This document shows, in pieces, positions 1-47,464 of a stretch of DNA of 47,464 nucleotides. Both the position numbers and the translations under genes were made by a program. The notes beneath the pieces were generated by a model. The model was not told the origin of the DNA. It did no database searches and saw nothing but the letters and a program-made list of their open reading frames with translations. The number at the start of each line of letters is the position of its first letter. Position 1 is the first letter of the stretch. The stretch is from a virus: positions 1 through 47,464 of the IMG/VR virus record IMGVR_UViG_3300025652_000128; one strand, given 5' to 3'.

Positions 1-165
1 CCTCGCCTTGGCCTTCGCCTTGGCCTTCGCCTTGGCCTTCGCCCTCGCCTTGGCCTTCGCCTTGGCCTTCGCCTTGGCCTTCGCCTTGGCCTTCGCCCTC
101 GCCTTCGCCCTCGCCTTCGCCTTCGCCCTCGCCTTTGCCTTCGCCTTTGCCTTCGCCTTTGCCGT
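1..165. repeat. Hexanucleotide low-complexity repeat, left window end
   Basis: Units GCCTTG, GCCTTC, GCCCTC and GCCTTT follow each other without interruption. On the minus strand they encode Gly-Gln, Gly-Glu and Gly-Lys pairs of the CobT-like linker. The same array closes the window at 47226-47464. The true copy number cannot be trusted because assemblies often end or collapse in such arrays. Confidence 0.9.
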
Positions 166-946
166 CTTCGGGCGTGTTCTGCGCGGGGGTTTGGAGCAGC
201 GCCGCAAGAAGTTCTGCTGCTAATTTGATGCGGGTCGCTGCTGCCAGTCTGCCGGGACGAGCGTCCTGTTGGCTCGCCAATCCCGTGACCGTTTCAACTG
301 CCGTCTCGACTAGGGCCAGAACAGCGGGGTCCGCTATCTGGCGGACGCGTGCCAAGTTCACGTCCAGCTTGGGCGTGTTCTGGTAGCCTCGGGCGTTGAT
401 GCTCGCCCCTAGAAGCACCTGCGCTTGGTGCGCCGGGTCGGTGGGTAGAGTGGCGTGAGGCCAGATCATGACTTGCTCGTTCAACTCGCCCAATAGGTCG
501 CGCGCTGCGCCTGCGAACTTGTTTCGGGGCTTGCTCGCCCACGTTTCGATATACATGTCCTCGATGGCGTTCGTCATCTGGTGCAACTGTGGGAGGGGCA
601 CGCCATGCACCCTTGCCGCGACTTGCAGTCTGTTGCTCAGTTTCTCCATGTCGGACAAAACCGCGTGCAATGTCTCATGGACAACGTAGGCCATAAGCGT
701 CCGGGCGAATTTCCCGGACACCTGTTTATCTGGGTCATACGTTGGGAGGCTGATCGTTAACTCTCCGGCCGTCGCCGATATTCTGGCGGTCTCACCTCCG
801 AGCAAATCGACGTTCACTTGGTGGATATCGGATCCGGACTGGCCGGTGGTCATCGCTTTGACCGTTTTCGTCACTGCGCTTGCGAAGTCCTCGTAGGACA
901 CCCAAACGGCAAAGTCATAAAGGTTTTTATCTGCGGTGGTTTTCAT
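1..946 (-). CDS. CobT-like protein, N-terminal part with HExxH zincin-like domain (gene cut by window end)
   Basis: The minus-strand frame starts at ATG 946 with a GGAG sequence just upstream (AAAGGAGACACATC) and stays open to base 1. Residues 1-260 form a folded-looking domain. HETLH at residues 90-94 is an HExxH zinc-binding motif, and it is followed by NAIEDMYIE at 126-134. This HExxH...N-x-x-ED-x-x-IE pattern occurs in phage and bacterial VWA proteins annotated as CobT-like or DUF2201-like putative metallopeptidases. From about residue 262 the chain becomes alternating Gly with Lys, Glu or Gln and runs off the window. The frame continues into the VWA domain at 46252-47464 if one base is added at the join, giving about 719 residues in all. 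It lies 25 bases downstream of the cobS-like AAA+ gene, so the two probably form an operon. Peptidase activity is inferred from the motif only. Confidence 0.75.
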   Translation of the reverse strand, partial: MKTTADKNLYDFAVWVSYEDFASAVTKTVKAMTTGQSGSDIHQVNVDLLGGETARISATAGELTISLPTYDPDKQVSGKFARTLMAYVVHETLHAVLSDMEKLSNRLQVAARVHGVPLPQLHQMTNAIEDMYIETWASKPRNKFAGAARDLLGELNEQVMIWPHATLPTDPAHQAQVLLGASINARGYQNTPKLDVNLARVRQIADPAVLALVETAVETVTGLASQQDARPGRLAAATRIKLAAELLAALLQTPAQNTPEDGKGEGKGEGKGEGEGEGEGEGEGEGQGEGQGEGQGEGQGEGEGQGEGQGEGQGE

Positions 947-971: not shown

Positions 972-2474
972 TCAGTTGAAAGCGTTCTGCGGGATGTTGG
1001 CCGTCCACAATTGGCGAAGCGGCTCGCGGTCGTCATATGGTGCGGTTTGCAAAACCGCCAAGTGTAGCGCCTCCGCGCCGGACGCACCGGATGCGATGCA
1101 GCCTGCCAGCGCTTCCAGCCGCCGGAAACCAAGTCCGTGTGACAGGTTGCCTTCACCGGAGGCTTTGCGGGTCTTGCCTGCGAAATCCACAAGGATGCGC
1201 GCGTGTTTTGCGTCGATCCCGGTCCGCTGAACAAGCAGTTTGCTCTCTGCTTTGGCGGGCAGGTAGTCGATTGGTACTGTGATGCTGAACCGGTCCAGCG
1301 TGGCCCGGTTCATAACGCGAGTGCCTTCGTAAGCGCCGTTCTCGTCACCGGTGCCGGAAGTGTTGTCCGCTGCGAGGAAAACAACGCCGGGGGCAACGGG
1401 CACGATCTCGCCAGTGTCCGGGATTTGGAGCGTGCGGTCCGCGTCCAGCACTGATTGCAGCACCATCATTGCGCCGGGGCGTGCGGCGGATGGCTCGTCA
1501 ATCAAAATGACCGTGCCGGGGCGACGGATGGCTGCCGTCAATTGTCCGTCCTGCCAGACTGTTGATCCGTCCACTAGGGCGGGCATCCCAACAAGCGTCG
1601 GTGCGTCCGTTTGATCCGTGCACGATATGCGGACAAATGGCCGGTTGAAGCGTGCCGCGACTTGCTTGGCGAAAGTCGTTTTGCCTGTCCCGGCTTGGCC
1701 AGTCAGGAAAACATTGCGACATGCGGCAAGTTCGGCGAGGACAAGCGCCGTGTGCTCGGACCAAACATAGCTTGCGTCCGTGGCTGGTGCGTCTGGTGCG
1801 TCATATACATCGAAAGTAGCTGCCGCCTGTTTGGCCGTCATCGGTGTTTCGATCCCGGACGCGTCCAGCCGCCGAGGCTCCGTGATTTTAGGAATGTGTC
1901 CCTTGATCTTTGCCGGGTCGATTGCTGCGCGCTCCACGATGCGAACGATTGCCGCCGGGGGTGGCGTGCAAGCTTTGACGGCCATGCGGTGCAACAGCGC
2001 CTTGTATCCGTCAAAGTCTCCGGATCCCATCAGGCTTTGCAGCTTCACCACTGCGGCCCGCGCGGTCTTCTCCACGTCTCCGTCCTCGCCTTCGCCTTCG
2101 CCTTGGCCCTCGCCTTGGTCCTCGCCTTGGTCTTGTTCCTCTGGGACGTCCGCTGTTGGTGCGCCGTTGTTAGTGTTGGTCGCCAATGCCAGCACTGCGG
2201 CCCCGCCGAGCCCTTCCGTTGCCGCTCTGGCGTTTACCGCGTCCATTGCTTGAGCGGACGTCATGCCGTTCGCCTTGGCTTGGTCGTACCATGTCGCCTC
2301 GCGTTCGGTCGGCTGATCGAAGCCCAACAGCGTGGCGTATTGGCTCAGGTCCGCGACGCTTGCGCCTGTTACTAGCTGTGGGTCGCTGCCCACAATCGCC
2401 TCGCGGTCTGGGTGGTTGCGGATGCGGCTCTTGATAATCGTCCGGGCGGAACCTTTGAATGTCATGCTTGTCAT
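972..2474 (-). CDS. CobS/MoxR-like AAA+ ATPase
   Basis: The product is 500 residues. ATG 2474 is chosen because AAAGGA lies about nine bases upstream; the open frame beyond it is repeat DNA. Residues 1-110 look like an N-terminal recognition region. Residues 112-133 are an acidic Gln/Glu-Gly stretch that echoes the linker of the neighbouring CobT-like protein. The AAA+ core follows: Walker A GQAGTGKTT at about 259-267, Walker B VILIDEPSA at about 322-330, a sensor-1 Asn in AADNTSG at 368-374, and an arginine-rich segment RVMNRATLDRF near 386-396. CobS and MoxR ATPases work with VWA partners, which fits the adjacent gene. A TTGACA-like -35 inside a putative repressor operator lies just upstream, so expression is probably repressor-controlled. 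CobS, MoxR or another NorQ-type subfamily cannot be told apart by eye. Confidence 0.85.
   Translation of the reverse strand: MTSMTFKGSARTIIKSRIRNHPDREAIVGSDPQLVTGASVADLSQYATLLGFDQPTEREATWYDQAKANGMTSAQAMDAVNARAATEGLGGAAVLALATNTNNGAPTADVPEEQDQGEDQGEGQGEGEGEDGDVEKTARAAVVKLQSLMGSGDFDGYKALLHRMAVKACTPPPAAIVRIVERAAIDPAKIKGHIPKITEPRRLDASGIETPMTAKQAAATFDVYDAPDAPATDASYVWSEHTALVLAELAACRNVFLTGQAGTGKTTFAKQVAARFNRPFVRISCTDQTDAPTLVGMPALVDGSTVWQDGQLTAAIRRPGTVILIDEPSAARPGAMMVLQSVLDADRTLQIPDTGEIVPVAPGVVFLAADNTSGTGDENGAYEGTRVMNRATLDRFSITVPIDYLPAKAESKLLVQRTGIDAKHARILVDFAGKTRKASGEGNLSHGLGFRRLEALAGCIASGASGAEALHLAVLQTAPYDDREPLRQLWTANIPQNAFN
1103..1125. repeat. 23-bp direct repeat, copy 1
   Basis: This is an exact 23-base match to 3495-3517, starting CTGCCAGCGCTTCC. 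This copy lies inside the cobS-like coding sequence; the other lies just after the stop codon of the gene ending at 3493. Confidence 0.85.
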
Positions 2475-3905: not shown

Positions 3906-6407
3906 TTACGGCATGTTGCTTAAGAGCCGATCCCGATCTTCCTTCATGATCCGCTCCAACTCGGCGGCTGCTTGGTCGGCCATCCACCGCCCGCCTTTGG
4001 TCTTCGCATCCACGACGTCCCTCGGCGTTAACGCAGGGCCCGCCCACATGGATGCGCGCGACACGCCTGAAGTCCGCACTTGGCCAAGGTTCGTACAACC
4101 CGCCGCCTTCATGCCTTGAACGATCACCTTGAGTGTAAGCCCGCCCGCCTTCACGGACGTGGGGGCCGCAACGGCGGCGTAGCTTTCAATCTCGTTTGCC
4201 GTCAGGAACCGCCGCCCGTGGAACCTGCCGCCCACAACGAACTGATCCAACACCCACTTGGATTTGTCACTGAGGTTGTGGGCGAGCATCGCGGCTTTGG
4301 AGCCGGACGTGTCAGGCGGCAGCAAGTGCGGGTTAAAGTTTGACAGGTCTCGGGCCAACAAGAACCCCATAACCCGCTCCGCCTCCGCAACGGACCCGAT
4401 CACCGGGGCCATGCGCTTGTACCAATCAGGGGCTTTTGGGTCCGCTGGTGACACGTAGGCCGCGATGCGCCTATCGTCGTCCTCCAGACCTCGCATCGCG
4501 TCCATATGGTTGGTGAAACCAATGAAGTTGGCCGTGGGCTCAAATGAGAAAGTCTTTGCGTACTTGCCGTTTATTTCGATCCGCCCGGCGTTCTGCCCGG
4601 TCCAGTCCTTCAACTTGTTGTACAAAGCCCCGTCCGCGCCGAACCGCAATTCCGGCATGACCACCATTTTCGCCCGTTGCCAAGAGTTGAACTGGCTTTC
4701 CAAGCGAGTGTTGTTCACGAACTGGACATTGTGCGCGCCCAAGATGTGAACCAACGGAGACAACCAAGTGTCTTTGCCGACCCCCTGCCCGCTGGCGATA
4801 AACAGCACCACAGGTGTTCTCTTGCCCGGAAACTGAACTTGGTAGGCCAACCAGTCCAACGCATAATTCCGGAAATCGTCGCAAGGCAACATGTATCCGG
4901 TCAAATCAAGCCACGCGTCCGGCACGCCCGCGCTCGCCACCAAGCCCCCCGGCGTCCACGTGTTGATCTGCTCAACCTTCTGTCCATGTTCGTTCACGGC
5001 CAACACGACGGGGTCCTCCACGCCGGGTTTGTAGGTCACTCCGTAAGCCGTCCGGCGATCAGGATGGTTGCGCAGGACATTGCACACCCGCTTCGCTCCG
5101 CTCAACCCGGCGGGATAGTGGGGCAGCACATCGGCGTGAAACTCCAGTTGCTTCTCGTCCATCAACTCCCGGTCCTCGGTGTCGAAGAAACCCTTGACCG
5201 GCCCAACCCAAACGAACCGCTCGACCAGACGCTCGGTGGCCGCGTCCAAGGCTTCCGCCGCCTGCGTCGCGCGCACCTCCATCCTCCGGGCCATTTCCTC
5301 GGCGTCATGCACAGCAGGGCTGTCGTCAACAACAGCCTGCCCAAACTTAACGCCGTGTTGCTCGAATGAGGCCCGCGCCTCGAAAGTCTGCGCGGACAAA
5401 GGCAGGTCCGCCGGGCGAGACCCAACAGCCTCCATCGCAGAAACGTGGTCCTCGTACTGCCCCCGGATCATCGCCGCGAAGTCCGGCGAGCGCAGCCCGT
5501 CGCAAGACGCGTGGTTGCAGTGACACAACCCGCCCCCTAAAAACGCAAAGCCAGTCTCTGGCCGGTCGCCATGTTCTGCCATGTTAGGACATAGCGCGTC
5601 GATCACCCCTTGGCGCGTCGAAGGGACGGGGTTAAGCCCCACCACACCGGCCATCCGGACAAGGGGGTCCTCCGCGTCCGCCACCCGAGCCAACGCGCCG
5701 TTGCCCACTGAGGCCAACTGACGGCCCGTCATAGCCATTTGCGGAACAGGCGCGTTCCTCCAATCTTCCCGGCCAAGCAACACTTGACCTATTTCGTCCA
5801 AAGATACTTTGTGACCTCGGTCCCACGTCACGGACGACACACTCGGCGGCCTCTCACCGGGCCCCCGGTATTTGGGCTTGGAATTCCAACCCATAGGGAG
5901 CCGCAGATACCGGGTCGGGTCATGCAGCGCGTCCGTCAGCTTCGCCTCAATCATGTAGGCCCGGATCAGCGCCAATTCGTCGCGCCTCTCGTCCGTGGTA
6001 GGATCACCGTCCAGCGCCCAGACCCAACTCTCATTGCCGGGCGATGTTTCGATCCGCACGGTCGGCTCCGGGAACCCCACCGCAAACATGGTGTCCCACA
6101 ACCCGCGATCCACCTTCGTTCCAATGTCGTCGGCGTACAACACGGGCTGCGATACGACTTCGCCAAGCGTCCGGTTGTTGGCCCCCGCCCGGATCAGTCC
6201 GGTGCAGAAGTACAAGTCCGCTTCGCGCGGGTCAGGCACGGCGCGCTTCAAACGCTCCAGCCCCTGCATCCCGAACCAAGACGCCCCCTTCTCTATGTCC
6301 GAAAAACCGGCGAGCCAAACTTGCTCGACCTTATCCACACCATACAACTCAACTAAGAAGCTTCGCACCACATTCCAATCAAGGCTCTTGTTCGTCGGGT
6401 CCGTCAT
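3906..6407 (-). CDS. Primase-helicase (AEP-like primase plus DUF5906-type helicase)
   Basis: The product is 833 residues. ATG 6407 is preceded by AGGAGAATAAA. The N-terminal third has the pattern of archaeo-eukaryotic-type phage/plasmid primases: LYADDIGTK, then RIETSPGNESWVWALDG, then RYLRLPMGWNSKPKY. The C-terminal half is a DUF5906/D5-like superfamily 3 helicase with Walker A ASGQGVGKDTW near residues 532-543 and the Walker B-like VVMPELRF further on. Such proteins prime and unwind phage DNA for replication, so this is the likely replicative core beside the family A polymerase. It is transcribed alone, separated from the integrase operon upstream by a terminator at 6484-6513. The start region of its leader has TTTTGTC and GACAAAC half-sites but with wide spacing. 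Confidence 0.85.
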   Translation of the reverse strand: MTDPTNKSLDWNVVRSFLVELYGVDKVEQVWLAGFSDIEKGASWFGMQGLERLKRAVPDPREADLYFCTGLIRAGANNRTLGEVVSQPVLYADDIGTKVDRGLWDTMFAVGFPEPTVRIETSPGNESWVWALDGDPTTDERRDELALIRAYMIEAKLTDALHDPTRYLRLPMGWNSKPKYRGPGERPPSVSSVTWDRGHKVSLDEIGQVLLGREDWRNAPVPQMAMTGRQLASVGNGALARVADAEDPLVRMAGVVGLNPVPSTRQGVIDALCPNMAEHGDRPETGFAFLGGGLCHCNHASCDGLRSPDFAAMIRGQYEDHVSAMEAVGSRPADLPLSAQTFEARASFEQHGVKFGQAVVDDSPAVHDAEEMARRMEVRATQAAEALDAATERLVERFVWVGPVKGFFDTEDRELMDEKQLEFHADVLPHYPAGLSGAKRVCNVLRNHPDRRTAYGVTYKPGVEDPVVLAVNEHGQKVEQINTWTPGGLVASAGVPDAWLDLTGYMLPCDDFRNYALDWLAYQVQFPGKRTPVVLFIASGQGVGKDTWLSPLVHILGAHNVQFVNNTRLESQFNSWQRAKMVVMPELRFGADGALYNKLKDWTGQNAGRIEINGKYAKTFSFEPTANFIGFTNHMDAMRGLEDDDRRIAAYVSPADPKAPDWYKRMAPVIGSVAEAERVMGFLLARDLSNFNPHLLPPDTSGSKAAMLAHNLSDKSKWVLDQFVVGGRFHGRRFLTANEIESYAAVAAPTSVKAGGLTLKVIVQGMKAAGCTNLGQVRTSGVSRASMWAGPALTPRDVVDAKTKGGRWMADQAAAELERIMKEDRDRLLSNMP

Positions 6408-27900: not shown

Positions 27901-28560
27901 CGGATCATCGGCAAACGCGCCGCCCATGTCTTTGACTTTCTCCCAAGTCGTGTCGCCCTGCGGCTGCGCGAACCGCTGCGCTGCCGGGTTCATCGGGATG
28001 GCCGAAGCTTCCGCCATTTGCTGCTGAATAAGGGGGGCGTTCTGCGCTATGAGCGAAGCGCCGTCCGCAGCCGTGCGGTCAAGCGCGCCTTGGCGTTCGC
28101 GGGTGCTGGAGGTTGTGGCGGCGGCACCGTACTGCGCGACTTGTTGCCGGAGCAAAGTGATTTCGTCCGCGACTTGGGCGCGTGTTTCGTCGTCCGGGAG
28201 GTTGGGCAGTTCCAACTCCAGCGCGTCCGCCTGTTGTGTAAGTTGCGCAGCCTCTTTGTCGGCGTACTGCACGCCGCCGATGCTGTCTTGCTGGTCCATG
28301 AGGCCAGCACCTTTGGCCACGCGAAGGCCCGGAATGATCGTGCGCGCCTGCGCAATGCCTGCCTGAATGTCGCCGCCCGCCGTGGATTGGTCGATAGGCT
28401 CCGGCGCGTCCAGCATGAAGCCCGGCGGGGGCGGCGGGATCGTGGTGTCCAGCGCGTCGGGCGCGTCCAGCGTGAAGCCGGAAGGGGGTGGCGGGATCGT
28501 GGTGTCCAGCGTGAAGCCGGAAGGGGGCGGCGGGATCGTGGGGTTCAGGGTGAGACCCAT
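21982..28560 (-). CDS. Giant polyvalent ejection protein (2192 residues)
   Basis: The N-terminus carries tandem TIPPPPSGFTLD units, and the motif recurs as TLPEGFTLD near residue 423. Small-residue hydrophobic stretches lie near 240-400. A ParB/DdrB-like domain spans about 510-800 (LQPRDRDRAASQTQIESIA, DGRVVESGNGRVMGLRRGY). A zincin-like segment near 1065 reads SFAHEWMHALDHYLL, an HExxH motif of the large polyvalent protein-associated type. A long helical region follows, then a membrane-like segment near 2010-2040 (ALATAAGFATLFAGQF). Polyvalent proteins are injected with phage DNA and act early in the host. Position beside the transglycosylase and internal virion proteins supports a capsid-internal ejection protein. 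Confidence 0.85.
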   Translation of the reverse strand: MGLTLNPTIPPPPSGFTLDTTIPPPPSGFTLDAPDALDTTIPPPPPGFMLDAPEPIDQSTAGGDIQAGIAQARTIIPGLRVAKGAGLMDQQDSIGGVQYADKEAAQLTQQADALELELPNLPDDETRAQVADEITLLRQQVAQYGAAATTSSTRERQGALDRTAADGASLIAQNAPLIQQQMAEASAIPMNPAAQRFAQPQGDTTWEKVKDMGGAFADDPGGVARTFALRSLPASAPTIAAGVLGSIAGPGGAAAAASLVGGATEKGASVAQSISEELTALNIDPNDKAAVEAWAMENPEAVTAMVTKATQRAVAIGAMDAVTGGATGALARSAAQAGKGTRVAATVGGGVVEAAGEGAGEASAQMLTDGKIDVGEIGAEIVGGGATGAITTAGQTVVEAMKQDRQPTSATPEPSELLDTLPEGFTLDEQGDTADAATSVAKPEISAQAPVEQTITATADAQTEPTDAPDAPDAVDGPVEQPAEQPTEQPTEQVEAPTRSKIYTPDNEEIEVETTVMEADDLLTSDSKDYPQELQPRDRDRAASQTQIESIANAPNAARLGDSPETDRGAPIIGPDGRVVESGNGRVMGLRRGYERGTAEEYRAAMVARFPAAANMRNPVMVRRRVTETDARDFTVASNQSATLTMSGSETARADARLVDDDLLSNYKGGNLMSASNRGFIRAFVARLPQSAQGALVTKEGGLTIDGQRRFQAAIFQHAYADEKMLTRLTESTDDDTASLTNALVTAAPAFSRLRNAIDRGEVSANVDLSDDLRAMTAVISDLKARKMNLSDYWAQSDAFAEPNSPLTDTLLGAFYNDTGTRMVSRKAMEDFLTEYATRAAEQRTDQATLPGVEPAPIKDGMELTNDIQSEQASNRNDGTGSLFAEADPSGRGQETQSSGRSAASKRTEKRGTVDGPRREQDAKQRPLQEKQIDPDPDLRTASSTNRQSIYEQAYRDAGVDPDDGVLMPPQQKIGLLTRLFRSQFGIAVARGANGSGKGRAIDAVENLLDGWRNIQFMAHVMRLPLEAMSLGGRLNLSMDKSNRSYLGMYNSTTTTIHMPERSNSFAHEWMHALDHYLLDTLTPGTESRLFTHLTRADGLDPSDSLQAAFVNLVHKMFFTDASLAVNMMRLEQKAQAVHKHGPLKGQPTKASVKALEQLERLRSGATRIKIDPSAYRANSARAFPSMKDYYASVHEMIARAFEAYIAHKVEMAGGTTEFIAKGDKAYLASADRALALLYPKTSERLAIFSAFDDLFGHIGTDVQGMAGNAAQRPADLDILDPAYWSKMGVLDESDSNTASVKEELRRIRNGFKKLTNQPLRTSLRNGASTLAMNTGVSMRDGENNGQYVARAGQRMADIGRFYLFSLRGATMARVRRAPKGAQLFLNEMLERVMTKHGSGDTIAQTFEEAREQLTNSTGSQIRNILRSNKLENWVTGRLKKSDNDIIRDSLLGKTPAGATKQHRTVAAALRRIMDATYRRALNAGLELGYVEDTGYLPRVLLPARVNDDPDKFVGDATRLYEVVFDRLMEDISPEDMLKLARQTAKRVDPLDRQDLYVDEIQALKDAIDADDETMINDAMDDLADAVRFDYANQSALDWKTRVISGESTSFDSLGPDANFMKVRTHPKEADTIMADWYDTDVLTSVLGYVHGVEARAQYHERFGAAGGYDKIDRVLSRPEIKSAIERSPTKYNYKTAQGRLNILRDLTDVKRDNIKEMAMNEAVDQGAKSDEVDAARNAIEEITGRNRSNGMKHADRLSAALFVLGYITLLPRAAWSSVAEPLTVMMRTGDVTTTARTFSTYLREAVRGNKSVKELAALAEMIGIVSTPLHDTVLLNRLAGDHGNIVSGNTIMTRFFRANFLSQLTNAQRRAVLAGGSYWLRDMARAHADPKASAVNKRLVEREFQELGVGPKNFETMRKWLAARDKLPTMADLQTPEGKVYGAMMGRFVDQTIQNPRRADKPMLASTPMGRLAYSLMSFIFTFFENVHAATARRMKGVYEIERELGAGKAKAAASASLPALATAAGFATLFAGQFVVGTVRAALYDQEQWEKKKADDEWEEWMVKLALSRTGILGPGDVIYNAYNGLRYERDLTSLLVGATPAYIASNTQNIIKGIPGIGPRNSANTNTAEHTAAKSLYRLTAIPLVNVGLSAVPVPGGGSAVLRYSVMQYLSSNTAASAFADVAVGPKAK
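28427..28555 (-). repeat. Tandem repeat encoding PPPPxGFxLD units
   Basis: Imperfect 36-base units on the minus strand encode TIPPPPSGFTLD and variants three to four times at the start of the giant protein. Confidence 0.8.
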
Positions 28561-28563
28561 GTG

Positions 28564-29184
28564 TTAGCCTTTCGGAAGCATTGAGGGGCGGCGCAGCGCC
28601 TGTTCGGCGTCATTTGCGGCCATCGTGGACCGGGACATTACTGCCTCGCGCAACATCTCCATGAAGGGCGCGGTGGCGTCGCCCCCTATGCGCGGCGCGG
28701 GGGTTCTTGCGGACATGGCGGGGCCCGTCGGTTGCGGCTCCGGGGGGAGTAGGTTCGCCAGTTCTGCGCCGGGGTCCGGGAGGATGCTAGGGGCTTGGCC
28801 CTGTGGAGGTTGGCCCATAGGTGCCGGGTTGCCGCCGAGAATACTTTGGATATAATTTCGGGTTTCGTCTGGAAGTGCACCAAGGTCGCCGTTCCATTTA
28901 TCTGCGTTTCCTGCGCCCCAATTGTATGCAGCCAGTGCGCGCGGCTGGTCGTTGTTATAGCGGGACAACATGGCTTGCATGTATTCCCGCCCAAACGCTT
29001 CGTTCACTTGCGGGTTGAACCGCTGCTCCCAATCCATCGGCGCAACACCAAACCCCGGATCGCGTGCCGTGTCGGGCATGATTTGCAAGATGCCAGCCGC
29101 CCCGGCGGGGGATACGGCGCGCGGGTTGCCGCCGCTCTCCTGCCGGATTTGGTTCGCGATAAGCTGTTCGAACGGAAGGGTCAT
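28564..29184 (-). CDS. Lytic transglycosylase (ejection-associated)
   Basis: The product is 206 residues. ATG 29184 shares a base with the upstream stop (TAATG). The SLT-type fold is clear: catalytic Glu16 in IRQESGGNP, then SPAGAAGILQIMPDTA, NVNEAFG-like and YNNDQPRALAAYNWGAG. The C-terminal 80 residues are Pro-rich and may anchor it in the virion. It opens peptidoglycan as DNA enters the cell. It lies directly upstream of the polyvalent protein with only three bases between them. Confidence 0.9.
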   Translation of the reverse strand: MTLPFEQLIANQIRQESGGNPRAVSPAGAAGILQIMPDTARDPGFGVAPMDWEQRFNPQVNEAFGREYMQAMLSRYNNDQPRALAAYNWGAGNADKWNGDLGALPDETRNYIQSILGGNPAPMGQPPQGQAPSILPDPGAELANLLPPEPQPTGPAMSARTPAPRIGGDATAPFMEMLREAVMSRSTMAANDAEQALRRPSMLPKG

Positions 29185-30314
29185 TACATCGGCACCCACT
29201 GGCCATTGCGCCACGCCACCTTGTTGCCGTTTGCGTCCGTGGCCGTAGGTTCAGCGGCGGCTCCGGTGCCGCCCGTGGCTGCTTGCGGGGCCGCGCCGGG
29301 TTGGGGCAGAAGCCCACCACCGGGAAGGCCGCGCTCCACGCGCTGCGACGGGCCGGGCCAGATGCGGTTCTCGAACTGGTTAGACTGGAGACCGGCGGCG
29401 GCAAGCACGTTCTCCACCGCAGAGGCTGCGTTCCGCGTCCGCTGGAATTCCGCAGCGGCTTCGGTCACAAGGCTTTGCAACAGTTCCGGCGGAACCTCCG
29501 CGCCCTTGAATTCCGCCGCCAAGCGGTCTCCTATCGTTCCGGTCAGCGCCTTCACCACGCCCGCCGACACGATTGGCGGGGCGGCCTTTCTCCCGGCGTT
29601 TGGGTTCTCTTTGAGAAATTGTTGCTTCAACAGTTCTGTTTCGTTGACGGACGTTTGCCGCCCCCCGGCTGCCTCGTCGGAGATACGCTGCTTCTCCAAC
29701 TCAGTGATGGAGGCCAGTTCGCTGTTTGCCATGCTCTGGTCGTTGACCATGCCTTGGCGGGTCTGTGCGTCCGCTTCGGCCTGTGCCTGCCCCGGCTGCG
29801 TCTGGCCGTAGTTGTCCACCACACCGGTGCCGAGGAAAACCTGGGCCATGTTGTCGGGGGTTTCAAACTGCGGATTGATCAACGTCGAGTAGCCCGCAAC
29901 CGTTCCGGGGTCGTTCAGGTCGATGCCCGCCGAGCCGAGCGCGCCGATAAGGGCTTTTCGGCCTTCGGGCGTGGCGGGGTCGATGCCCGTCAGTGCCCCG
30001 GCAAGGCCCATTAAATTGTCGTGAGTTTGCTGCTCGCGTCCGTCCGCGTTGCGGGTCGTGTCCGCCACGGCGTTGGCCTGCCCTGCCTGCGCCCCGTAGA
30101 GGTTCGCCTGCTGGTCGTACATGCCTGACCCGGCGCGCGCCCGGTAGTCGCCTGCCACTGCGTTGGCTTGGCCGGATTGCGCCTCCATAAGCGCCCGCTT
30201 GCCGCGCGCAAGATCGGCTTCGATCATGCCCCCGGCGTTCGGGGCGAAGATTTGGGCGAGTGCTTGGAACCCTTCGCGGATGCCGTTGCTACCTGTATTC
30301 ATGGAAGATTGCAT
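29184..30314 (-). CDS. Internal virion/ejection protein
   Basis: The product is 376 residues, with GAGG seven bases before ATG 30314. It is mostly helical, rich in Ala, Gln and Gly, with repeated QANAVA and QANLYGAQAG segments that resemble ejection proteins lining the portal barrel. The C-terminus is low-complexity and ends in WRNGQWVPM. No catalytic motif is seen. Position between gp14-like protein and the transglycosylase gives the role; it is inferred. Confidence 0.7.
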   Translation of the reverse strand: MQSSMNTGSNGIREGFQALAQIFAPNAGGMIEADLARGKRALMEAQSGQANAVAGDYRARAGSGMYDQQANLYGAQAGQANAVADTTRNADGREQQTHDNLMGLAGALTGIDPATPEGRKALIGALGSAGIDLNDPGTVAGYSTLINPQFETPDNMAQVFLGTGVVDNYGQTQPGQAQAEADAQTRQGMVNDQSMANSELASITELEKQRISDEAAGGRQTSVNETELLKQQFLKENPNAGRKAAPPIVSAGVVKALTGTIGDRLAAEFKGAEVPPELLQSLVTEAAAEFQRTRNAASAVENVLAAAGLQSNQFENRIWPGPSQRVERGLPGGGLLPQPGAAPQAATGGTGAAAEPTATDANGNKVAWRNGQWVPM

Positions 30315-31694: not shown

Positions 31695-32243
31695 CTATCG
31701 CAGTTCAGCGGACACGTTGCTGTTGCTCTGGGTCGTCCGGCGCTGGTCGATTTTGTCGATCACGCCTTTTGTCGTTTCTCGCGTCCATACGTAGTTTACA
31801 AAATCTTCGCCGTTTTTGCCCCAATTGTCCAATTTTTCTTTCGGTTTTGCTCCAAGAAATTCCAACCACTTACGTGCGTCCTCGTGCGTGGCCAGCGACA
31901 TGGCGTCCACGCGCGCGGCTCCGGAGTTGTAGAGGGCGGGCAGCATGAACCGGCGGACATGGCGCGTCAACAGGCCGATGGCTTCGGGCCACCGTGCCGT
32001 GCCGAAGGCCCACGCAGACCACACGTTTGGCCAGCGCGGGTGCGCGCCGATAACAGCTATCGGTTCGCCGTCGTCGGCGACGGCACACCACTGGAACGGG
32101 CCGGTGGATAGTGTGTCGTGGGCAAGCTTGTCCGTGTCCTCGCCATACCGGGTGGCGAAGATTTCCTCCCGGTCGCGCGGACGCATGTTGCGGGCGATGT
32201 GCGTGACGTCGGACAGTGTGTGCGTTGTGATTAGCCGAGGCAC
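31695..32243 (-). CDS. DUF2833/T7 gp13-like acetyltransferase-fold protein
   Basis: The product is 182 residues. GTG 32243 overlaps the upstream stop (TAGTG) with GGGGA upstream; the longer frame runs inside the upstream gene and is rejected. LSDVTHIARNMRPRDREEI, then CAVADDGEPIAVIGA and AWAFGTARWPEAIGLLTRHV follow the GNAT-like pattern of DUF2833 proteins, including T7 gp13, which are needed for assembly of internal virion proteins. Acetyltransferase activity is not implied. Confidence 0.75.
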   Translation of the reverse strand: MPRLITTHTLSDVTHIARNMRPRDREEIFATRYGEDTDKLAHDTLSTGPFQWCAVADDGEPIAVIGAHPRWPNVWSAWAFGTARWPEAIGLLTRHVRRFMLPALYNSGAARVDAMSLATHEDARKWLEFLGAKPKEKLDNWGKNGEDFVNYVWTRETTKGVIDKIDQRRTTQSNSNVSAELR

Positions 32244-33688
32244 TAGGATTTTTCCCCGGACTTGTAATGCAGCGCCATGGACGAGATTACCGCCGGGCCG
32301 CTTTCCACAGAAACCATCCGGGCTTGAATGTGCGTGCTGCGCATGTCCAGCGGTACGCGACCAAGCGCCCACGTGGGATTGGATACGCGGGCAACCTTGA
32401 GCCACGATGGCGTGGATAGCGACACGTTGATGTAGACGTCCCACACGCCGGAGCAGGTAACGTCCAAACCCGTCCACGCTTTCGAAGCGGCAGGATCGCC
32501 CGCGTCGAGGAAGGCGGTCTCCACCGTGGCCACAGTGTCGTCATAGCTGTTTTCTGCCGCGCCGGACGCGCTGGTGGCCAGATACGGGTTGACGTCCTCT
32601 GCGGGTGTTGCGCCGTACAGGAACAGTTGGTCGCCGGAGCGGAGTGCAACTCGGGCGTTGGCCTTGGTGGCCGCGTCGATTGTGTAGGGGAATTCGAACC
32701 GGGACCACGCCGCGATTTTGGTGGACGGGAACGTGGATAGCACGAACGCCTCGTTCTCCCAAATAAGCCAGAAACGGCCAGATAAGGGGTCAACTAGGGC
32801 CCGGATTTTCAGGGCAATTTCGTCCGTGAGCAGGCCGCGCTTGGCGGCAATCAGAACGTCAATGGGAGACCCGACGTCGTTCAAGGTCGCGGACGTGCTG
32901 CTGTCTCGGGCGCGCAGGCTACGGATGCCGGTGTTAGATAGGAACAGCACGTCGCCGTTGGAGGCTCGGGCAAGCCCGTGCGGGGCCAACAGCCCGGTGT
33001 TGCCGAGGACTTGCACCTGTTGGTTCAGGTCGGGGTCAGGGTCCATCGCCCAAACCTGAACGGCGGACTGTCCAAACAACGCAACGCTGGAGTAATACTG
33101 TTCGATGCCGACCAGTTCCTCCCCTGCGCTGTCTTGGATCGTAACGTCGATAATGCCAGCGCCTGCGCCTGCACCTGCGCCCCAATCGGTTGCGTCCGCC
33201 ACCGCGCTGAAACGCAGGTTCGGGCCGTCGGTGGCGTATAGTTTGGATTTGTGCGCGTAAACCGTCGTGCCTTGCGCGCCGGGGTCGGTGACTTCCACGT
33301 TGTTGTAGAAGTGGCGGACGCTGTCGTCGGTCATGCGCACAATCACGTAGTGAACCGCGCCAAAAAACTGCGCGTCCAGAACGTCCACAACGGTCTCCGC
33401 GTCGGAGGGGAACAGCCGGTGGTATCGGACGTAAGGAGGCAACAGTGGCTCGACAAGCGCGGGGTCCGCGTCACCGAACACGACGAGGCGGTAGCCGTTG
33501 AAGGACAGACCGTGCGTTAGCCCGGCGGGGAGCGTCCCTACGTCCGTGAAAAGTTGGCGTTTCTCGATTTCGCCGCCCGCCGATACAACGGCGTTCGTCA
33601 TCGTCCGCAGCGAGCCGGGGGTGGCCGCGACGGGTGACTTGCGGAGGTCAATCCCCTGCGCGAAGTCATCTAGCATAATGTAGGGCAT
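32243..33688 (-). CDS. Tail/head-stabilisation beta-propeller protein (P22 gp10-like)
   Basis: The product is 481 residues with GAGGAC before ATG 33688. It is beta-rich with repeated short strands (LTHGLSFNGYRLVVFGD, SKLYATDGPNLRFSAV, GDVLFLSNTGIRSL). The opening DFAQGIDLRKSPVAATPGSL is typical of phage packaged-DNA stabilisation or tail tubular proteins. It would close the portal channel below the adaptor. Confidence 0.75.
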   Translation of the reverse strand: MPYIMLDDFAQGIDLRKSPVAATPGSLRTMTNAVVSAGGEIEKRQLFTDVGTLPAGLTHGLSFNGYRLVVFGDADPALVEPLLPPYVRYHRLFPSDAETVVDVLDAQFFGAVHYVIVRMTDDSVRHFYNNVEVTDPGAQGTTVYAHKSKLYATDGPNLRFSAVADATDWGAGAGAGAGIIDVTIQDSAGEELVGIEQYYSSVALFGQSAVQVWAMDPDPDLNQQVQVLGNTGLLAPHGLARASNGDVLFLSNTGIRSLRARDSSTSATLNDVGSPIDVLIAAKRGLLTDEIALKIRALVDPLSGRFWLIWENEAFVLSTFPSTKIAAWSRFEFPYTIDAATKANARVALRSGDQLFLYGATPAEDVNPYLATSASGAAENSYDDTVATVETAFLDAGDPAASKAWTGLDVTCSGVWDVYINVSLSTPSWLKVARVSNPTWALGRVPLDMRSTHIQARMVSVESGPAVISSMALHYKSGEKS

Positions 33689-36051: not shown

Positions 36052-37203
36052 TCAGCCGCCCAAGGCTTGATTGATAACGTCCTCGAGGGACGTTGGGACG
36101 GGCTGGACCCCGGAACGTCGGGGAGCCGCGTTGCCTGCCGTGGTGGGTGCGGGCCGTGTCGCTTTGCGGGCGGCTGCCTTTGGACGGAGCATTTGATTGA
36201 CTTCGGCGTAGGCGGCTTTTGCCTGCGTCAAAGCTTGCTCTGGTGTCTTGGGCAGTCCCTGTTCGGCAACTATTGCCTGCGCCACCCGGCGCATCGCGGC
36301 GGTTTTTTCGCCGAAGTCGGGGTCAGCCACTTGGATTTCGTTGAACCAAGTGTTGATGGCGGACGCGATATTCCGTTGCTGTTGAGCGCCTTGCGACTGC
36401 TGCACCTGTTGACGATTTCGCTCCAGCCGGTCGGTGGCAAGCTGTTCGTTGTAACGCGAACGGGCTACCATCTGGGCCGCTTCTGTCGTCATGTCGCCCG
36501 TTTCCACCTGTTCTTGCAGGTCTTGCGGGACGGCTTGTCCGGTGGCTTCAAGGGCCATTTGAACAAGCGGTGCAATCCGATCTAGGAAGCCTTGCAACCG
36601 TTGTGGATCGCCGGATTTCAGGTCCGCGCCCACTTTGAACAAGTCCGCGACTTCTGCATCATGCAGGTTGTTCTCGGACATGTACGTCCGCACCGCTTTG
36701 TAGTTGTTGGCTTCGCTCTTGAAGTTTGCCGCTTCGTCACGGGCTTCTCTGCGTTGGGCCAGCAATTTGCTGATGCGTCCACGGGCCTTTCGGCCCATCT
36801 GGTTGAGTTCTTCTTCGGAAGGATCGTCGTCGGGGGTCTCGCCAGCTTCGGGTTCCGCTTCGTCCGGGGCTTCGTCCGCTTCCGCGTCCTCTGCCTCGCC
36901 ATCGGCTTCGCCTTCATTGGCTGGTGTCCCATCACCTTCCTCGCCGTCAGCGTCCGCATCATCGTCAGTCTCGCCGTCCGTTTTCGGGGCGCTGTCGATG
37001 GCTTCGTCTGTCGGGGCGGCTTCGAAGGCCCGTTCGATGGCGTCAGCCATAGACTTGGGTTCTTCTATTCCTTCCGGTTGGTGGTCACTTTCGCCGCTGG
37101 ACGTGAGCGGAGTTTGATCGTCCGGGGTAGTTTCGGCAGAACCTGCAACCATGGGTGTGTCGGTCGCAGTCTGTTCGCCGTCTTTGTCTCGCGATGGAGG
37201 CAT
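36052..37203 (-). CDS. Scaffolding protein
   Basis: The product is 383 residues. ATG 37203 is chosen because AAGGG lies nine bases upstream; upstream in-frame starts lie in the leader motif. Residues 1-150 are very acidic (runs of Asp, Glu, Ala). The middle is coiled-coil-like (KLLAQRREARDEAANFKSEA), rich in Gln, and the C-terminus is basic (RPKAAARKATRP). Acidic N-terminus, helical core and basic tail are usual for podoviral scaffolds that direct capsid assembly. Confidence 0.82.
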   Translation of the reverse strand: MPPSRDKDGEQTATDTPMVAGSAETTPDDQTPLTSSGESDHQPEGIEEPKSMADAIERAFEAAPTDEAIDSAPKTDGETDDDADADGEEGDGTPANEGEADGEAEDAEADEAPDEAEPEAGETPDDDPSEEELNQMGRKARGRISKLLAQRREARDEAANFKSEANNYKAVRTYMSENNLHDAEVADLFKVGADLKSGDPQRLQGFLDRIAPLVQMALEATGQAVPQDLQEQVETGDMTTEAAQMVARSRYNEQLATDRLERNRQQVQQSQGAQQQRNIASAINTWFNEIQVADPDFGEKTAAMRRVAQAIVAEQGLPKTPEQALTQAKAAYAEVNQMLRPKAAARKATRPAPTTAGNAAPRRSGVQPVPTSLEDVINQALGG

Positions 37204-37245
37204 GTATTCGCACCCTTGTGAATTCTGATGCGGCAACATTGTCTG

Positions 37246-37256
37246 TTTTGTAGGTT
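37246..37256 (+). promoter_or_regulatory. TTTTGTAGGTT motif, scaffold leader
   Basis: An exact copy, but on the strand opposite to the flanking genes, in the portal-scaffold gap. Confidence 0.45.
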
Positions 37257-37303
37257 TCAAGCAAACTGCAAATTAGGGTATGCCCCTAATTTCGTTGGCA
37301 AAT

Positions 37304-37353: not shown

Positions 37354-39528
37354 TCACATTCCTACTGAGCCGGGAGGGGGCGGCGGCGCGCCTTCCGGGG
37401 GCCGTGCTGCGGAGTTAACCTGTTGGGGTTGTGTGGACGGAGCGTTGTTGCCGCCCTGCCCTCCCTGTGCGCGAGGGTCCGTGGCGGGACCGCCAGCGCC
37501 AGCTTGCTCCGGACCGGCTGCCTGCTTGGCCGCGTTCATCATTTGGATTGACGGCATACCTGCGGCGAAGGCGTCCGCCAAGTCCAACCGGTCGTCCATG
37601 CGGCGCAACATTTCCTTGGCCATCCACTCGGGGGAGATGCCGGGGATTTGCATAAGCATGGGGAAGATCGCCTGCGCGTTCTGTATGTCCTGCGCCTTGT
37701 TCGGGCGGCCAGTGGACGCCGCTTCGATTTCCAGCATGATTTCCAGCGCCACGTTCTCGCGGTCCAGTTCGGGCCACACTGCGCCGGGGCCAAGTACCTT
37801 TTTCACCTTCTCGGCGCTGCACTCCAAGAGCAGAACCTGCCCGGAGGCCCGCGCCAACTCGGTTAGGAATTCATCCAGATCATCGACTACGGACGCCACG
37901 GACGTGGACCGGGAGCCCTCCGCGATTGCGGCTTCGGTTGCCGTGGAGCCGGACGTGCCGCCGAGGTTGGCTTCCTGTTGTCCGAGCGCCCGCAGGTAGT
38001 CCTCGAACACGGGTGACGGGTCGTACACCGAGGGGTCGATGGAGGGCCCGGAGTGCGATTGCAGCAAGTCGCTGATTTTCTCGCCGGGTTGCATCCCTGT
38101 GATTTCAACAACGGCGTGTGCTTCGGCTTCCGTTATCTTGGCCTTGTCGTCCTCACTCAGCCGCCCGGAGGCCATGTAGGTGCGCGGGCGCGCAGCCACG
38201 CGGTGTTCGCGCAGGCCCTGCCGGGTGCGGTTTAGTTCCCTCTGCATGTCGCGCATGAGCCGGGCGTCCGACATTGGGATCACGGTGTCGTCGTCGTAGA
38301 CCTCGTTGATCACGAAAGGGAACCACGGGAAGAACCGCTCCAAGTAGATATCCGGGGCCGCAGGCTCCACGAGAAAGTCGGGGTATCCGTCGCAGACAAC
38401 ATACACCATGCCGTCGGTGCGGGAGTACACCTCCCACAAACAATGGTACGTGTCGCCCTTCTTGTCTTTCACGCTGTCCGTCGGGCTATAGGCGTGGTGC
38501 CGTGTCCGGCGGTACGCTCGGGCCGTGGCGGCTTCCTCGTCGGACACTCCGGGGGCGCTGCTACTTACGTCCACGCCGTAGACTTCCTTGATCCGGTCGG
38601 CGGACAGGAAGTATTCTTCGGCCACCCACTGAGCGCCGACGAAGCCGCGAAGCTGTTTGATGTCCGGGTCCATGATGATCGCCGTGCTGTCGGGAAAGTT
38701 GTAGGTCAGGCCCTCGCGGATGATGACTTGTTCGGTCTGAGACAGATCGGCCAGAAGCAACCGGAGTTGTTCTTCCTCCGCGCTGCCCTCTAGGATTTCC
38801 CCGTCCGCCATGTCCGCAGAAAGACGCTCCATCGCGGACAACTGCTGCTCCGTGGTTTCGATGCGGCGGTCCACGTCCGGGTGTTTACCCATGATGCGCT
38901 CGTATCCAAGCTTGGTGTAGCCCACGCCGGTGGTCAGCGCGCGGCGGACCGTGCCTTTCATTTGGACCTTGAACGGGATCGGCTGTTCGTCAATCTCGTG
39001 TTCGTACATTAGTTCCAGCGTGCGGGCCATTTTGTCCAGCATCTGGTTTTGCGCCATGGTTTGTTGCGCGTCTTGCAACACCGCCATGGCTTGCATGTTC
39101 ATGGGGTCCATGCTGACCGCTTCCATTGCGGCGGATATGGACTGGCCGGAGCCGTCCCACACCGTGGAGAGCAACCGGGGCTTGCGCTTGGCCACCACTT
39201 TGGGGTTCTTGCCGTAGATCGAAGCCGTGCGGCTGATAACGTGGCGCAACGTGATGTTGGCGACATACCGATCTTCCGGCGTTTCGGTAAACTGCGCGGC
39301 GTCCGCTGCCGACTGGCCCGTCGCCCACTGCGCTCCGGCAGTGAACCGCATGTCCTCTATCATCCGCTTGAACGCCGTGTCGTGCCAGAACGATCTAGCG
39401 CGGCGGACACGGTCCGCCCACGCGTTCACTAGTTCGGCGCGGCCCGCTTCGGGCTCCGGGGTCTCGCGGCTGATGATCGCGGATTGGTCCACTGCGGTGC
39501 CCATTGTGCTTTGAAATTCGTTTTCCAT
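37354..39528 (-). CDS. Portal protein
   Basis: The product is 724 residues; ATG 39528 lies one base after the terminase stop. The N-terminal RAELVNAWADRVRRARSFW and the repeated Trp/Tyr/Arg-rich core (TTGVGYTKLGYERIMG, ERFFPWFPFVINEVYDDD) match large podoviral portal proteins of about 700 residues. The C-terminus is Gly/Pro/Gln rich (GGQGGNNAPSTQPQQ), as in barrel regions. It forms the dodecameric DNA channel and binds terminase. Confidence 0.88.
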   Translation of the reverse strand: MENEFQSTMGTAVDQSAIISRETPEPEAGRAELVNAWADRVRRARSFWHDTAFKRMIEDMRFTAGAQWATGQSAADAAQFTETPEDRYVANITLRHVISRTASIYGKNPKVVAKRKPRLLSTVWDGSGQSISAAMEAVSMDPMNMQAMAVLQDAQQTMAQNQMLDKMARTLELMYEHEIDEQPIPFKVQMKGTVRRALTTGVGYTKLGYERIMGKHPDVDRRIETTEQQLSAMERLSADMADGEILEGSAEEEQLRLLLADLSQTEQVIIREGLTYNFPDSTAIIMDPDIKQLRGFVGAQWVAEEYFLSADRIKEVYGVDVSSSAPGVSDEEAATARAYRRTRHHAYSPTDSVKDKKGDTYHCLWEVYSRTDGMVYVVCDGYPDFLVEPAAPDIYLERFFPWFPFVINEVYDDDTVIPMSDARLMRDMQRELNRTRQGLREHRVAARPRTYMASGRLSEDDKAKITEAEAHAVVEITGMQPGEKISDLLQSHSGPSIDPSVYDPSPVFEDYLRALGQQEANLGGTSGSTATEAAIAEGSRSTSVASVVDDLDEFLTELARASGQVLLLECSAEKVKKVLGPGAVWPELDRENVALEIMLEIEAASTGRPNKAQDIQNAQAIFPMLMQIPGISPEWMAKEMLRRMDDRLDLADAFAAGMPSIQMMNAAKQAAGPEQAGAGGPATDPRAQGGQGGNNAPSTQPQQVNSAARPPEGAPPPPPGSVGM

Positions 39529-46104: not shown

Positions 46105-46141
46105 CAAAAAAGCCCGGTCCGCTGTTGTGGCGGGCCGGGCT
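46105..46141 (-). terminator. Rho-independent terminator after the CobT-like gene
   Basis: A 12-bp stem (AGCCCGGTCCGC with its near-perfect complement, one G-T pair) closes a seven-base loop and is followed on the minus strand by six T residues (46110-46105). It separates the cobS-cobT-like operon from the late block. The remainder of 45935-46251 holds a leader motif at 45963 and no convincing gene. Confidence 0.88.
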
Positions 46142-46251
46142 TCATTTCGCTTGGTGGCGTTATATCGCTGCGCAGATTGCTTCGACCAGTGCGAAGGCTG
46201 CTGCGCTTGCGAGCAACAGCCTGACCGCTTGTGCGGGCCTATTGCGCCCCA

Positions 46252-47464
46252 TCACCTGCCAGCACCTGACGCCTTGCCGCTGGCCAGCAATACTTGCGCC
46301 ACCATCTCGGGCAACCGGGCGACGTCTGTACAGTTCACGGAAAAGGACGGGCCGAAAAGATCCACTATGGCGCTACAATTCAGCGCCACCGCGACATGCT
46401 CCACGCCTGACCGGCGGGCGCGTGCAAGCTGCTGTTGGGTCGCTGTTGGGTCGTGGGGGTCTCCGTCACACAACCAGACGCACACCCGGCGCTCGGTCCT
46501 GCGTGCCGCAAGTTGCCGGGTGGCCCATTTAACCTCTGCCGCCATTGGCGTCCCGCCTCTGGGCTGCAATTCGCCGCATGTCCGGACGAGATCCAGCACA
46601 CCTCTGTCACTTCCAAAGCGCTTCACCTGCGTGATTGTCTCAGGAATGTCGCTGCCTGCAAACATAGCGAGCGCGCTCTCTGCGCCTGCTCGTTTCAGCG
46701 CGGGCATCATCGCCTCTAACATCGCGATGGACGCCGCCCACAAATTTGTCTGCCCTTGGCCAATGGCGGTCTCGTCAAACATACTGCTGGACGCGTCCAG
46801 CATGATCTGGACCGCCGTTGTCACGCCGGGGGTCAGTTCTCGTGTGGTGTACAGATCCCGGCATCCGGCCAAGGCGCGAGGCATCGCTCGGGCGTCCAGT
46901 CGGCCAGCCAAGTTGCGCCGTGTGATTTGAAGCTGCTCCACGCTACGCAGTCCGCGCCGGAACGCGTCCGCCATTTGGCGCGCTGGCATCGCGCGCTTGG
47001 CCTCCGCCAGATAGCGGGCGTAATCTTTGAGGATGGGCGTGTAGTCGCGGAGCTGGTACATCTTGCGCCGCCGTTTTTGGTGGTCCTCGAAGGTCGCGGC
47101 GTCCGCGGACGGGACAACTGCGTAATTAGCGCCTGCCGCGTCCTTGCCGCTCCGGGTAGGTGCGAGGTCCGCCAATAGTTCTTCTCTTGTCTGGGGAAGA
47201 TCCGGGGCAATGTCGCCGGGGCCGCCCTGACTTGCGCCTTTGCCTTGGCCCTCGCCTTCGCCCTCGCCTTGGCCGCCGCCTTCGCCTTCGCCTTTGCCTT
47301 GGCCTTCGCCTTTGCCCTCGCCCTCGCCCTCGCCTTGGCCTTCGCCTTGGCCTTCGCCTTGGCCTTCGCCCTCGCCTTGGCCTTGGCCTTCGCCTTGGCC
47401 TTCGCCCTCGCCTTGGCCTTCGCCTTGGCCTTCGCCTTGGCCTTCGCCCTCGCCTTCGCCCTCG
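46252..47464 (-). CDS. CobT-like protein, C-terminal part: Gly-Glu repeat linker and VWA domain (gene cut by window end)
   Basis: This is the 3' part of the gene that begins at 946. From the window edge down to about 47226 it encodes alternating Gly with Glu, Gln or Lys. A basic helical stretch (QKRRRKMYQLRDY) follows, then a von Willebrand A domain. The MIDAS motif DASSS lies in VQIMLDASSSMFDE, with GGTPM and LCDGDPHD as later metal-site elements. N-terminal domain, acidic linker and C-terminal VWA is the layout of cobaltochelatase subunit CobT, whose partner CobS is an AAA+ ATPase. In cobalamin synthesis the pair drives metal insertion by CobN. No CobN and no ribonucleotide reductase is visible here, so a chelatase role is doubtful and a MoxR-VWA type remodelling role is more likely. 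A strong minus-strand terminator lies about 110 bases downstream. Confidence 0.8.
   Translation of the reverse strand, partial: EGEGEGEGQGEGQGEGQGEGEGQGEGQGQGEGEGQGEGQGEGQGEGEGEGKGEGQGKGEGEGGGQGEGEGEGQGKGASQGGPGDIAPDLPQTREELLADLAPTRSGKDAAGANYAVVPSADAATFEDHQKRRRKMYQLRDYTPILKDYARYLAEAKRAMPARQMADAFRRGLRSVEQLQITRRNLAGRLDARAMPRALAGCRDLYTTRELTPGVTTAVQIMLDASSSMFDETAIGQGQTNLWAASIAMLEAMMPALKRAGAESALAMFAGSDIPETITQVKRFGSDRGVLDLVRTCGELQPRGGTPMAAEVKWATRQLAARRTERRVCVWLCDGDPHDPTATQQQLARARRSGVEHVAVALNCSAIVDLFGPSFSVNCTDVARLPEMVAQVLLASGKASGAGR
47226..47464. repeat. Hexanucleotide low-complexity repeat, right window end
   Basis: This is the continuation of the array at 1-165. Joined end to start, the six-base period is broken by exactly one missing base: a five-base unit GCCTC appears where GCCCTC is expected. 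Adding one C restores both the period and the reading frame of the CobT-like gene. About 135 Gly-X residues are encoded in total if no units were lost. Confidence 0.85.

Follow-up and report, generated by a model that had tools for sequence, protein, structure and literature searches.

AAA+ ATPases that act with a VWA-domain protein have been described in several settings. In group 2.2 jumbo phages, the vWA protein of a MoxR-vWA pair bears an N-terminal metallopeptidase, and a role in virion assembly has been proposed (PMC7824862). For NorQD, a contact through a finger in the pore has been proposed, as has an ATP-driven twist that turns the VWA domain relative to the N-domain, the linker being stretched (PMC13036017). 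The cobaltochelatase subunit CobT works with CobN (PMC8651126); hijacking of the host's CobN by the phage 'cobS/cobT' pair has been suggested (PMC8651126), and a 'peptidase' label for these genes has been called mistaken (PMC8651126, PMC9503304). Here we consider such a pair in IMG/VR virus record IMGVR_UViG_3300025652_000128, analysed over its whole length of 47,464 nt (hereafter the window). An AAA+ ATPase gene is followed on the same strand by a gene for a protein with an N-terminal HExxH domain, a long low-complexity linker and a VWA domain (Table 1). On balance, we favour reading the pair as an ATP-driven AAA+/metallopeptidase-VWA machine that cuts or remodels proteins, likeliest at phage replication or recombination complexes.

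The preliminary description of this stretch, made from the letters alone, noted a zincin-like HETLH at residues 90-94 of the VWA protein, and the motif is indeed there, in a predicted helix spanning residues 78-97. An HExxH by itself is modest evidence, appearing in 170 of 20,000 shuffles of the N-domain; what counts is conservation at the aligned position. HETLH is invariant across 61 aligned N-domains, an alignment collected partly with HExxH seeds, in which E129 and E134 are at least 90% conserved, and a four-row alignment holds H90, E91, H94, D99, N126, D130, I133 and E134 without variation. Across the phage relatives, the candidate metal-site residues of the N-domain are thus nearly invariant. 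An AlphaFold model built from the 61 rows (predicted local distance difference test, pLDDT, 89.8; predicted template-modelling score, pTM, 0.88) runs through a helix, three strands, the HExxH helix, another helix and a helix holding N126-E134. The domain is confidently modelled, and the order of its elements resembles that of small gluzincins, with HExxH on one helix and a downstream Glu on another. The Glu of HExxH is the catalytic base in zincins. Matches of the model in BFVD included viral CobT- or VWFA-named proteins and a protein of haloarchaeal virus HHTV-2, along with, weakly, SprT-like proteins. DUF2201_N (PF13203) was tried as the N-domain family and rejected, with no window match and a match in 1 of the 61 N-domains (best E 0.058). 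Judging from model and alignment, the N-domain is a candidate peptidase, probably zinc-dependent, with a candidate metal site, and the order of elements together with the near-invariant residues lends support to the remodelling or peptidase complex first suggested for the pair.

We counted HExxH in sets of relatives gathered in different ways. In a motif-neutral approach, viral contigs were searched with the ATPase alone and a VWA partner was then sought with a profile able to pick up proteins without HExxH as well (all 30 CobT loci were recovered by it); among the ATPase-seeded loci listed, 17 of the 17 partners having an N-terminal region carried the motif. This search sampled at least 54 loci, and 37 of the 54 gave no VWA frame, several of the 37 ending near the ATPase and many being weak AAA matches. 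HExxH was likewise found in all 24 VWA-seeded viral rows with an N region (27 rows in total, 3 without that region), a set biased by the fact that one of its two seeds carried the motif. The motif is present in 12 of 13 named phages (6/7 and 6/6), which were chosen from match lists and not at random, and in two of three plasmid or island proteins. A genome scan with a four-row alignment gave HExxH in 28 of 28 by construction, its only seed having the motif, and is not evidence on this point. Two contigs that were copies of the contig L001 discussed below (L002 and L006) were dropped before counting.

By sequence, the window protein is linked to ICP2 gp41, to the 'CobT' of Microcystis phage Mae-Yong1326-1 and to a VWA protein encoded on a Salmonella genomic island, a protein that itself matches 1431 plasmid records. 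Identity to aligned relatives is only 14-36%, and tblastn of the N half against the named phages returned nothing at E 0.1, the link being made through the VWA half and the alignments. With a cyanophage-type protein as query, tblastn matched 463 records from phages, of which 365 belong to Synechococcus phages and 52 align across 80% or more of the query, and HExxH was confirmed in Syn19, Mosig and OC, the three of these records checked. A cobS gene is core to T4-like cyanophages (PMC3037559). The pair is therefore widespread, and it is counted as a B12 function in papers. We also observed the same VWA and ATPase coordinates and scores in Kluyvera sichuanensis and in a metagenome-assembled genome labelled Clostridia (L064 and L065), a probable case of mis-binning.

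The result we consider most useful is a residue difference between these proteins and true CobT. A TIGR01651 search of 299 Pseudomonadota genomes gave 91 matches, 79 of them over the cut-off, and our true CobT set of 31 comprises the best 30 of the 79 plus the Shinella CobT, which is 90% identical to PDB 9uka over the part queried. None of the 31 has HExxH at the aligned position (one stray HExxH, in locus L141, lies far upstream of the domain), while E129 is kept in all 31 and E134 in 29. Their counterpart motif, HDxxxH, is absent from the first 300 residues of all 51 viral rows, and PDB 9uka has HNxxxH at this place. With HDxxxH conserved at this point, a plain loss of the site in CobT is too strong a reading; CobT may instead carry a metal site of another kind.

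The two groups are nonetheless related in both domains. An N-domain profile matched the N-terminal domain of solved CobT structures (21vu_H, E 1.4e-5; 9uka_G, 3.9e-4), the CobT rows having a gap where the HExxH segment lies; the VWA domains are related at E 1.2e-18, and the CobT family PF06213 matches 26 of the 61 N-domains at E <= 0.1. In the window, which holds the gene in two pieces, TIGR01651 itself (cut-off 759 bits) matched nothing at E <= 0.001. In a VWA-domain tree of 85 of 114 rows (7 near-copies or cut copies, 17 of the 31 true CobT and 5 short VWA domains left out), CobT forms one clade with a Shimodaira-Hasegawa-like approximate likelihood ratio test (SH-aLRT) support of 100, and the HExxH state needs three changes. 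The placement of this clade among HExxH proteins has weaker support (89) in a tree that was quick, unrooted and contained several long branches, and that cannot prove the direction of HExxH change. A Caballeronia CobT-like protein without HExxH (L035:3041-4777) groups with an HExxH viral protein (support 99); this locus may belong with the CobT-like proteins that score about 200-276 bits, well under the cut-off of TIGR01651. 'CobT-like' is thus a fair name for the phage protein and 'CobT' is not, and the clear orthology to true cobaltochelatase genes that the preliminary description had named as a possible refutation did not emerge. HExxH in mobile-element proteins and HDxxxH in true CobT make a clean criterion at the residue level, one that favours the peptidase label over the B12 label in the phage proteins examined and turns a default B12 annotation into a question answerable by one mutant. 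It also bears on the kinship of a chelatase subunit and a protease-like protein. Among the papers listed in our literature searches, which mostly excluded subscription papers, none was seen to set phage CobT-like proteins against true CobT with regard to HExxH.

The partner gene encodes an AAA+ ATPase of the MoxR/CobS/CbbQ type. The CobS/MoxR-like AAA+ neighbour proposed from the sequence is upheld by matches to AAA_5 (3e-19), CbbQ_C (over cut-off) and phrog_249 (3.4e-63), and it falls well short as a CobS, with 106.2 bits against TIGR01650 and its cut-off of 558.55. GQAGTGKT and Asp326-Glu327 we take to be Walker A and Walker B, and five residues that do not vary across 10 aligned rows (K265, D326, E327, N371 and R395) presumably belong to Walker A, Walker B, the sensor and the arginine finger. 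With these residues beside an adjacent DxSxS VWA domain of NorD-like form, the genes have the features of a MoxR-type AAA+/VWA pair. The AAA+ gene adjoins the VWA gene in 23 of 27 VWA-seeded viral loci, and in the other four the VWA frame begins at a contig edge. PADLOC found no match for the VWA protein and weak P-loop matches only for the ATPase.

In the 3' part of the partner gene, a VWA_2 match over the cut-off and the metal ion-dependent adhesion site (MIDAS) motif DASSS bear out the VWA domain described earlier; the D, S and S are invariant in 47 aligned VWA domains. NorD fills the top six rows of a Foldseek search with an AlphaFold model of the VWA half (47 rows, pLDDT 88.9), led by 9qh8_G at E 2.8e-14. 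The superposition on this chain (Z 21.4, root-mean-square deviation 4.0, 235 aligned) covers model residues 32-276, including the segment before the VWA core, which may act as a finger. Solved CobT chains were absent from the structure-search rows shown, from a library ending 2026-04-08; the link to CobT comes through sequence alone.

The VWA gene is cut in two by the ends of the record, and the preliminary description had joined positions 1-946 to 46252-47464. That the halves belong to one real gene follows from a second contig, L001 (IMGVR_UViG_3300006920_000105), in which a single frame of 663 amino acids (L001:6001-7992) contains both. The literal join fails: it is 2159 nt long, and its three reading frames hold 8, 9 and 22 stops. 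By arithmetic, overlapping the record ends by 5 bases would restore the frame, which carries no weight within a 6-nt repeat. Both record ends fall within such a repeat, coding Gly, Glu and Gln, which L001 reads through; the record is therefore cut inside the linker. The first 890 and last 999 nt of the L001 gene are identical to those of the window gene, and the linker between them differs. The long Gly-Glu linker noted at the outset is present as a low-complexity Gly/Glu/Gln repeat at both ends, with roughly 58 + 76 residues visible, versus about 89 in L001 (41 G, 23 E, 11 Q). The near-identical L001 thus spans the repeat with a shorter version than that of the window. Although the record is classed as linear, with no end repeats, the genome may be circular or permuted.

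We propose the following mechanism. The products of both genes would form one ATP-driven machine, in which AAA+ hexamers would grip the VWA protein by the finger beside its VWA domain, as NorQ holds NorD. ATP turnover would then twist the VWA domain, and a target bound at its MIDAS, relative to the N-domain at the other end of the long flexible linker. The N-domain, as a small gluzincin-type zinc metallopeptidase (HETLH plus a Glu about 35-40 residues on), would clip or edit the protein so presented. The likeliest targets would be proteins at phage replication or recombination complexes.

Several results weigh against this proposal. A Foldseek search of the N-domain model against the PDB gave no match at E <= 0.001. 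In favour of the proposal, when the Foldseek candidates were aligned with VIA-align, the first 19 rows were mostly entries titled zinc or metallo-peptidases, and their make-up fits the HExxH motif. The best Z, 7.6, belongs to a DUF885 protein, one of two high-ranked proteins of unknown function, followed among the top rows by APN1, ERAP1, IRAP, selecase, ZMPSTE24, an M61 peptidase, BlaR1 and LTA4H (Z down to 5), but a Z below 8 may reflect a mere common arrangement. Two relatives keep the pair without the motif: DREVST replaces HExxH in Stenotrophomonas phage BUCTxx99 (L032:1846-3831) and DQEVAK replaces it in an Acinetobacter plasmid (L036:2882-4804). In these candidate inactive versions, the machine would either work without HExxH or be dead. 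Among true CobT, HDxxxH precedes E..R.E in all 29 segments located (2 of the 31 were not located by pattern), so that in at least one branch the region may hold metal without cutting. On the side of context, tail fibres stand beside primases and clamp loaders among the commonest neighbour families shown for metagenomic relatives (95 of 230 frames, the longer ones), a tail-fibre gene lies 900 nt from the window pair on its downstream side, and the counts given below have no background rate.

The CobT result leads to the first rival, in which the pair is a NorQD-like metal-insertion or remodelling chaperone in which the metal at the HExxH site would serve delivery or structure and not catalysis. 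Its nearest VWA structures are those of NorD, which serves iron insertion, and its nearest relative with a known pathway is CobT, a chelatase subunit with its own HDxxxH and E..R.E in the matching domain. Against this, no metalloenzyme client was recognised beside the pair in the loci read. Within one of the alignments the HExxH Glu never varies, even in the single row where both His are lost, but this fits catalysis and metal holding alike. We consider this explanation unlikely, and the strongest of those that compete with a protein-cutting machine.

A second rival, which we place after the first and also judge improbable, is a MoxR-vWA chaperone whose peptidase processes structural proteins during virion assembly. 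The same layout and an explicit proposal exist for the group 2.2 jumbo phages, a paper that also cites an archaeal virus whose MoxR-vWA pair is needed for tail assembly (PMC7824862), and the window's own tail-fibre gene would suit such a role. The flanks of 13 named phages, taken as 3 to 6 kb per side where the record allowed, point elsewhere. A gene labelled as replication, recombination or repair is present in 11 of them (ICP2, Mae-Yong1326-1, RHph_X66, CRP-810, SSU5, BUCTxx99, T5S1, PhiR41_1, pJN2-26, Syn19 and OC), including a RecA-family ATPase in Mae-Yong1326-1 and endonuclease V in CRP-810, and no such label was found in the flanks of Mosig and ScarletRaider. Genes labelled as head or tail are missing from the flanks of all 13, where many genes carry no label. 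In Syn19 the order is gp47-gp46-[peptidase-cobS]-gp45-gp44. In the Salmonella genomic island a Bet recombinase adjoins the VWA gene, and relatives sit on conjugative plasmids and on this island next to a phage-type recombinase. The neighbours thus hint more at DNA replication or recombination than at virion assembly, and action on virion proteins, as first envisaged alongside host proteins, is so far not supported, though the window pair does have the tail-fibre gene on one side.

The last rival is a viral cobaltochelatase (CobST) that borrows the host's CobN and raises cobalamin during infection. This is the published reading (PMC8651126, PMC9503304), cobS and cobT being counted as auxiliary metabolic genes in PMC7029224 and cobS in PMC11705849, and it draws on the kinship of both domains with CobT described above. 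Twenty-eight HExxH-relative loci lie in 27 bacterial genomes, of which 10 have a match to the CobN family PF02514 and 17 do not (8 present and 11 absent of 19; 2 and 6 of 8), compared with a match in every one of the 8 controls that have true CobT. Since PF02514 includes magnesium chelatase too, 10 of 27 is an upper bound for CobN, and several of the 27 are metagenome-assembled and may be incomplete, so that absence is not absolute. The pair with its HExxH is also present in Escherichia phage PhiR41_1, recorded on K-12 MG1655, and E. coli, included in the control set, is not among the genomes matching the CobN profile. Because of the genomes without a CobN match and of PhiR41_1, a general cobaltochelatase role with host CobN is unlikely. 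In the control set, a Caulobacter vibrioides genome has CobT over the cut-off and is not listed for PF02514; true CobT may persist without CobN. The preliminary description had thought a B12 role weakly supported, and rightly so in view of the failed CobT and CobS profiles, the HExxH difference and the genomes without a CobN match. The window has no CobN match (PF02514), in line with its statement on CobN; its further claim that no ribonucleotide reductase is present stands for the large subunit (no PF02867 match), other classes and subunits not having been sought by profile. With HExxH kept in the phage proteins and missing from true CobT, a borrowed cobaltochelatase is very improbable as the explanation of the pair.

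A broader history is conceivable, and we offer it tentatively, as doubtful but worth stating. Phage and plasmid 'CobT' proteins could be ATP-driven metalloproteases that target proteins where DNA is being replicated or recombined, perhaps clearing DNA-stuck proteins in the manner of Spartan/Wss1, and cellular CobT could be a descendant in which HExxH was rebuilt as HDxxxH and re-used for B12. If this were true, the B12 auxiliary metabolic gene label that phage cobST so widely bears would be wrong.

Table 1. Positions of the pair, its motifs and other features in the window.
Feature	Coordinates	Strand	Basis or remark
5' part of metallopeptidase-VWA gene: ATG at 946, N-domain residues 1-255, start of linker; runs off record end	1..946	-	
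Gly/Glu/Gln linker repeat, first record end	3..163	-	6-nt repeat
N126-x-x-E129-D130-x-x-x-E134, candidate third metal ligand(s), predicted helix 118-137	545..571	-	coordinates computed from start codon
HETLH, residues 90-94	665..679	-	invariant in 61 aligned N-domains
AAA+ ATPase, MoxR/CobS/CbbQ type	972..2474	-	same strand as VWA gene, 25 nt upstream
ATPase Asp326-Glu327	1494..1499	-	coordinates computed
GQAGTGKT, ATPase residues 259-266	1677..1700	-	coordinates computed
DNA primase-like gene, upstream of AAA+ gene	3906..6407	-	phrog_1156 5.6e-31; DUF5906 over cut-off
Deoxyribonucleoside 5' monophosphate phosphatase family	16716-17507	+	phrog_318, 1.4e-43
Transglycosylase-like domain of virion-associated lysins	28564-29214	-	
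GC-rich hairpin then T6, about 110 nt past VWA stop, likely terminator of the pair	46110..46142	-	direct reading
3' part of metallopeptidase-VWA gene: end of linker, finger-like segment, VWA domain, stop at 46252	46252..47463	-	VWA_2 over cut-off
MIDAS motif DASSS	46783..46797	-	D, S, S invariant in 47 aligned VWA domains
Gly/Glu/Gln linker repeat, second record end	47235..47464	-	6-nt repeat

The stem of the likely terminator was listed by an automated scan for the plus strand only. Elsewhere in the window, large frames of the structural region gave no PHROG match at 1e-6 (18769-21891, 29184-30314, 32243-33688, 36052-37260 and 37354-39528; minus strand), and a frame of 2192 amino acids (21982-28560) was scanned only within a group. 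A ferredoxin label among the window genes was set aside, as it lies on an endolysin-like frame.

Set against known systems, the window pair has counterparts among phage genes already named. The 'CobS/CobT' of ICP2, Mae-Yong1326-1, a cobavirus and SSU5, and the 'peptidase/cobS' of the T4-like cyanophage Syn19, are homologous HExxH and VWA pairs, and an acidic or Gly-rich linker is common to those of these relatives that were aligned. The Salmonella island VWA protein has HExxH, N-EDxxIE, a low-complexity linker and a VWA domain as in the window, with an AAA+ gene nearby in some relatives; a Pseudomonas plasmid relative differs in having a DUF3150 gene between the AAA+ and VWA genes. True CobT (TIGR01651; PDB 9uka, 21vu) has related VWA and N-terminal domains but carries HDxxxH and forms its own clade. 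NorQ/NorD (PDB 9qh6, 9qh8, 9qhd-g) shares with the window pair an AAA+ protein with CbbQ_C, a VWA domain plus finger-like segment and a flexible linker, and differs in that NorQD loads iron into cNOR; wording on HExxH or zinc for NorD was not found in the two papers searched. The MoxR-vWA pair of the jumbo phages, compared by its published description only (PMC7824862), has the same gene pair and domain order, whereas the window is a small integrase-bearing phage whose context suggests replication more than virion assembly. The layout is thus already in print for jumbo phages, and the window pair joins a known AAA+/metallopeptidase-VWA kind.

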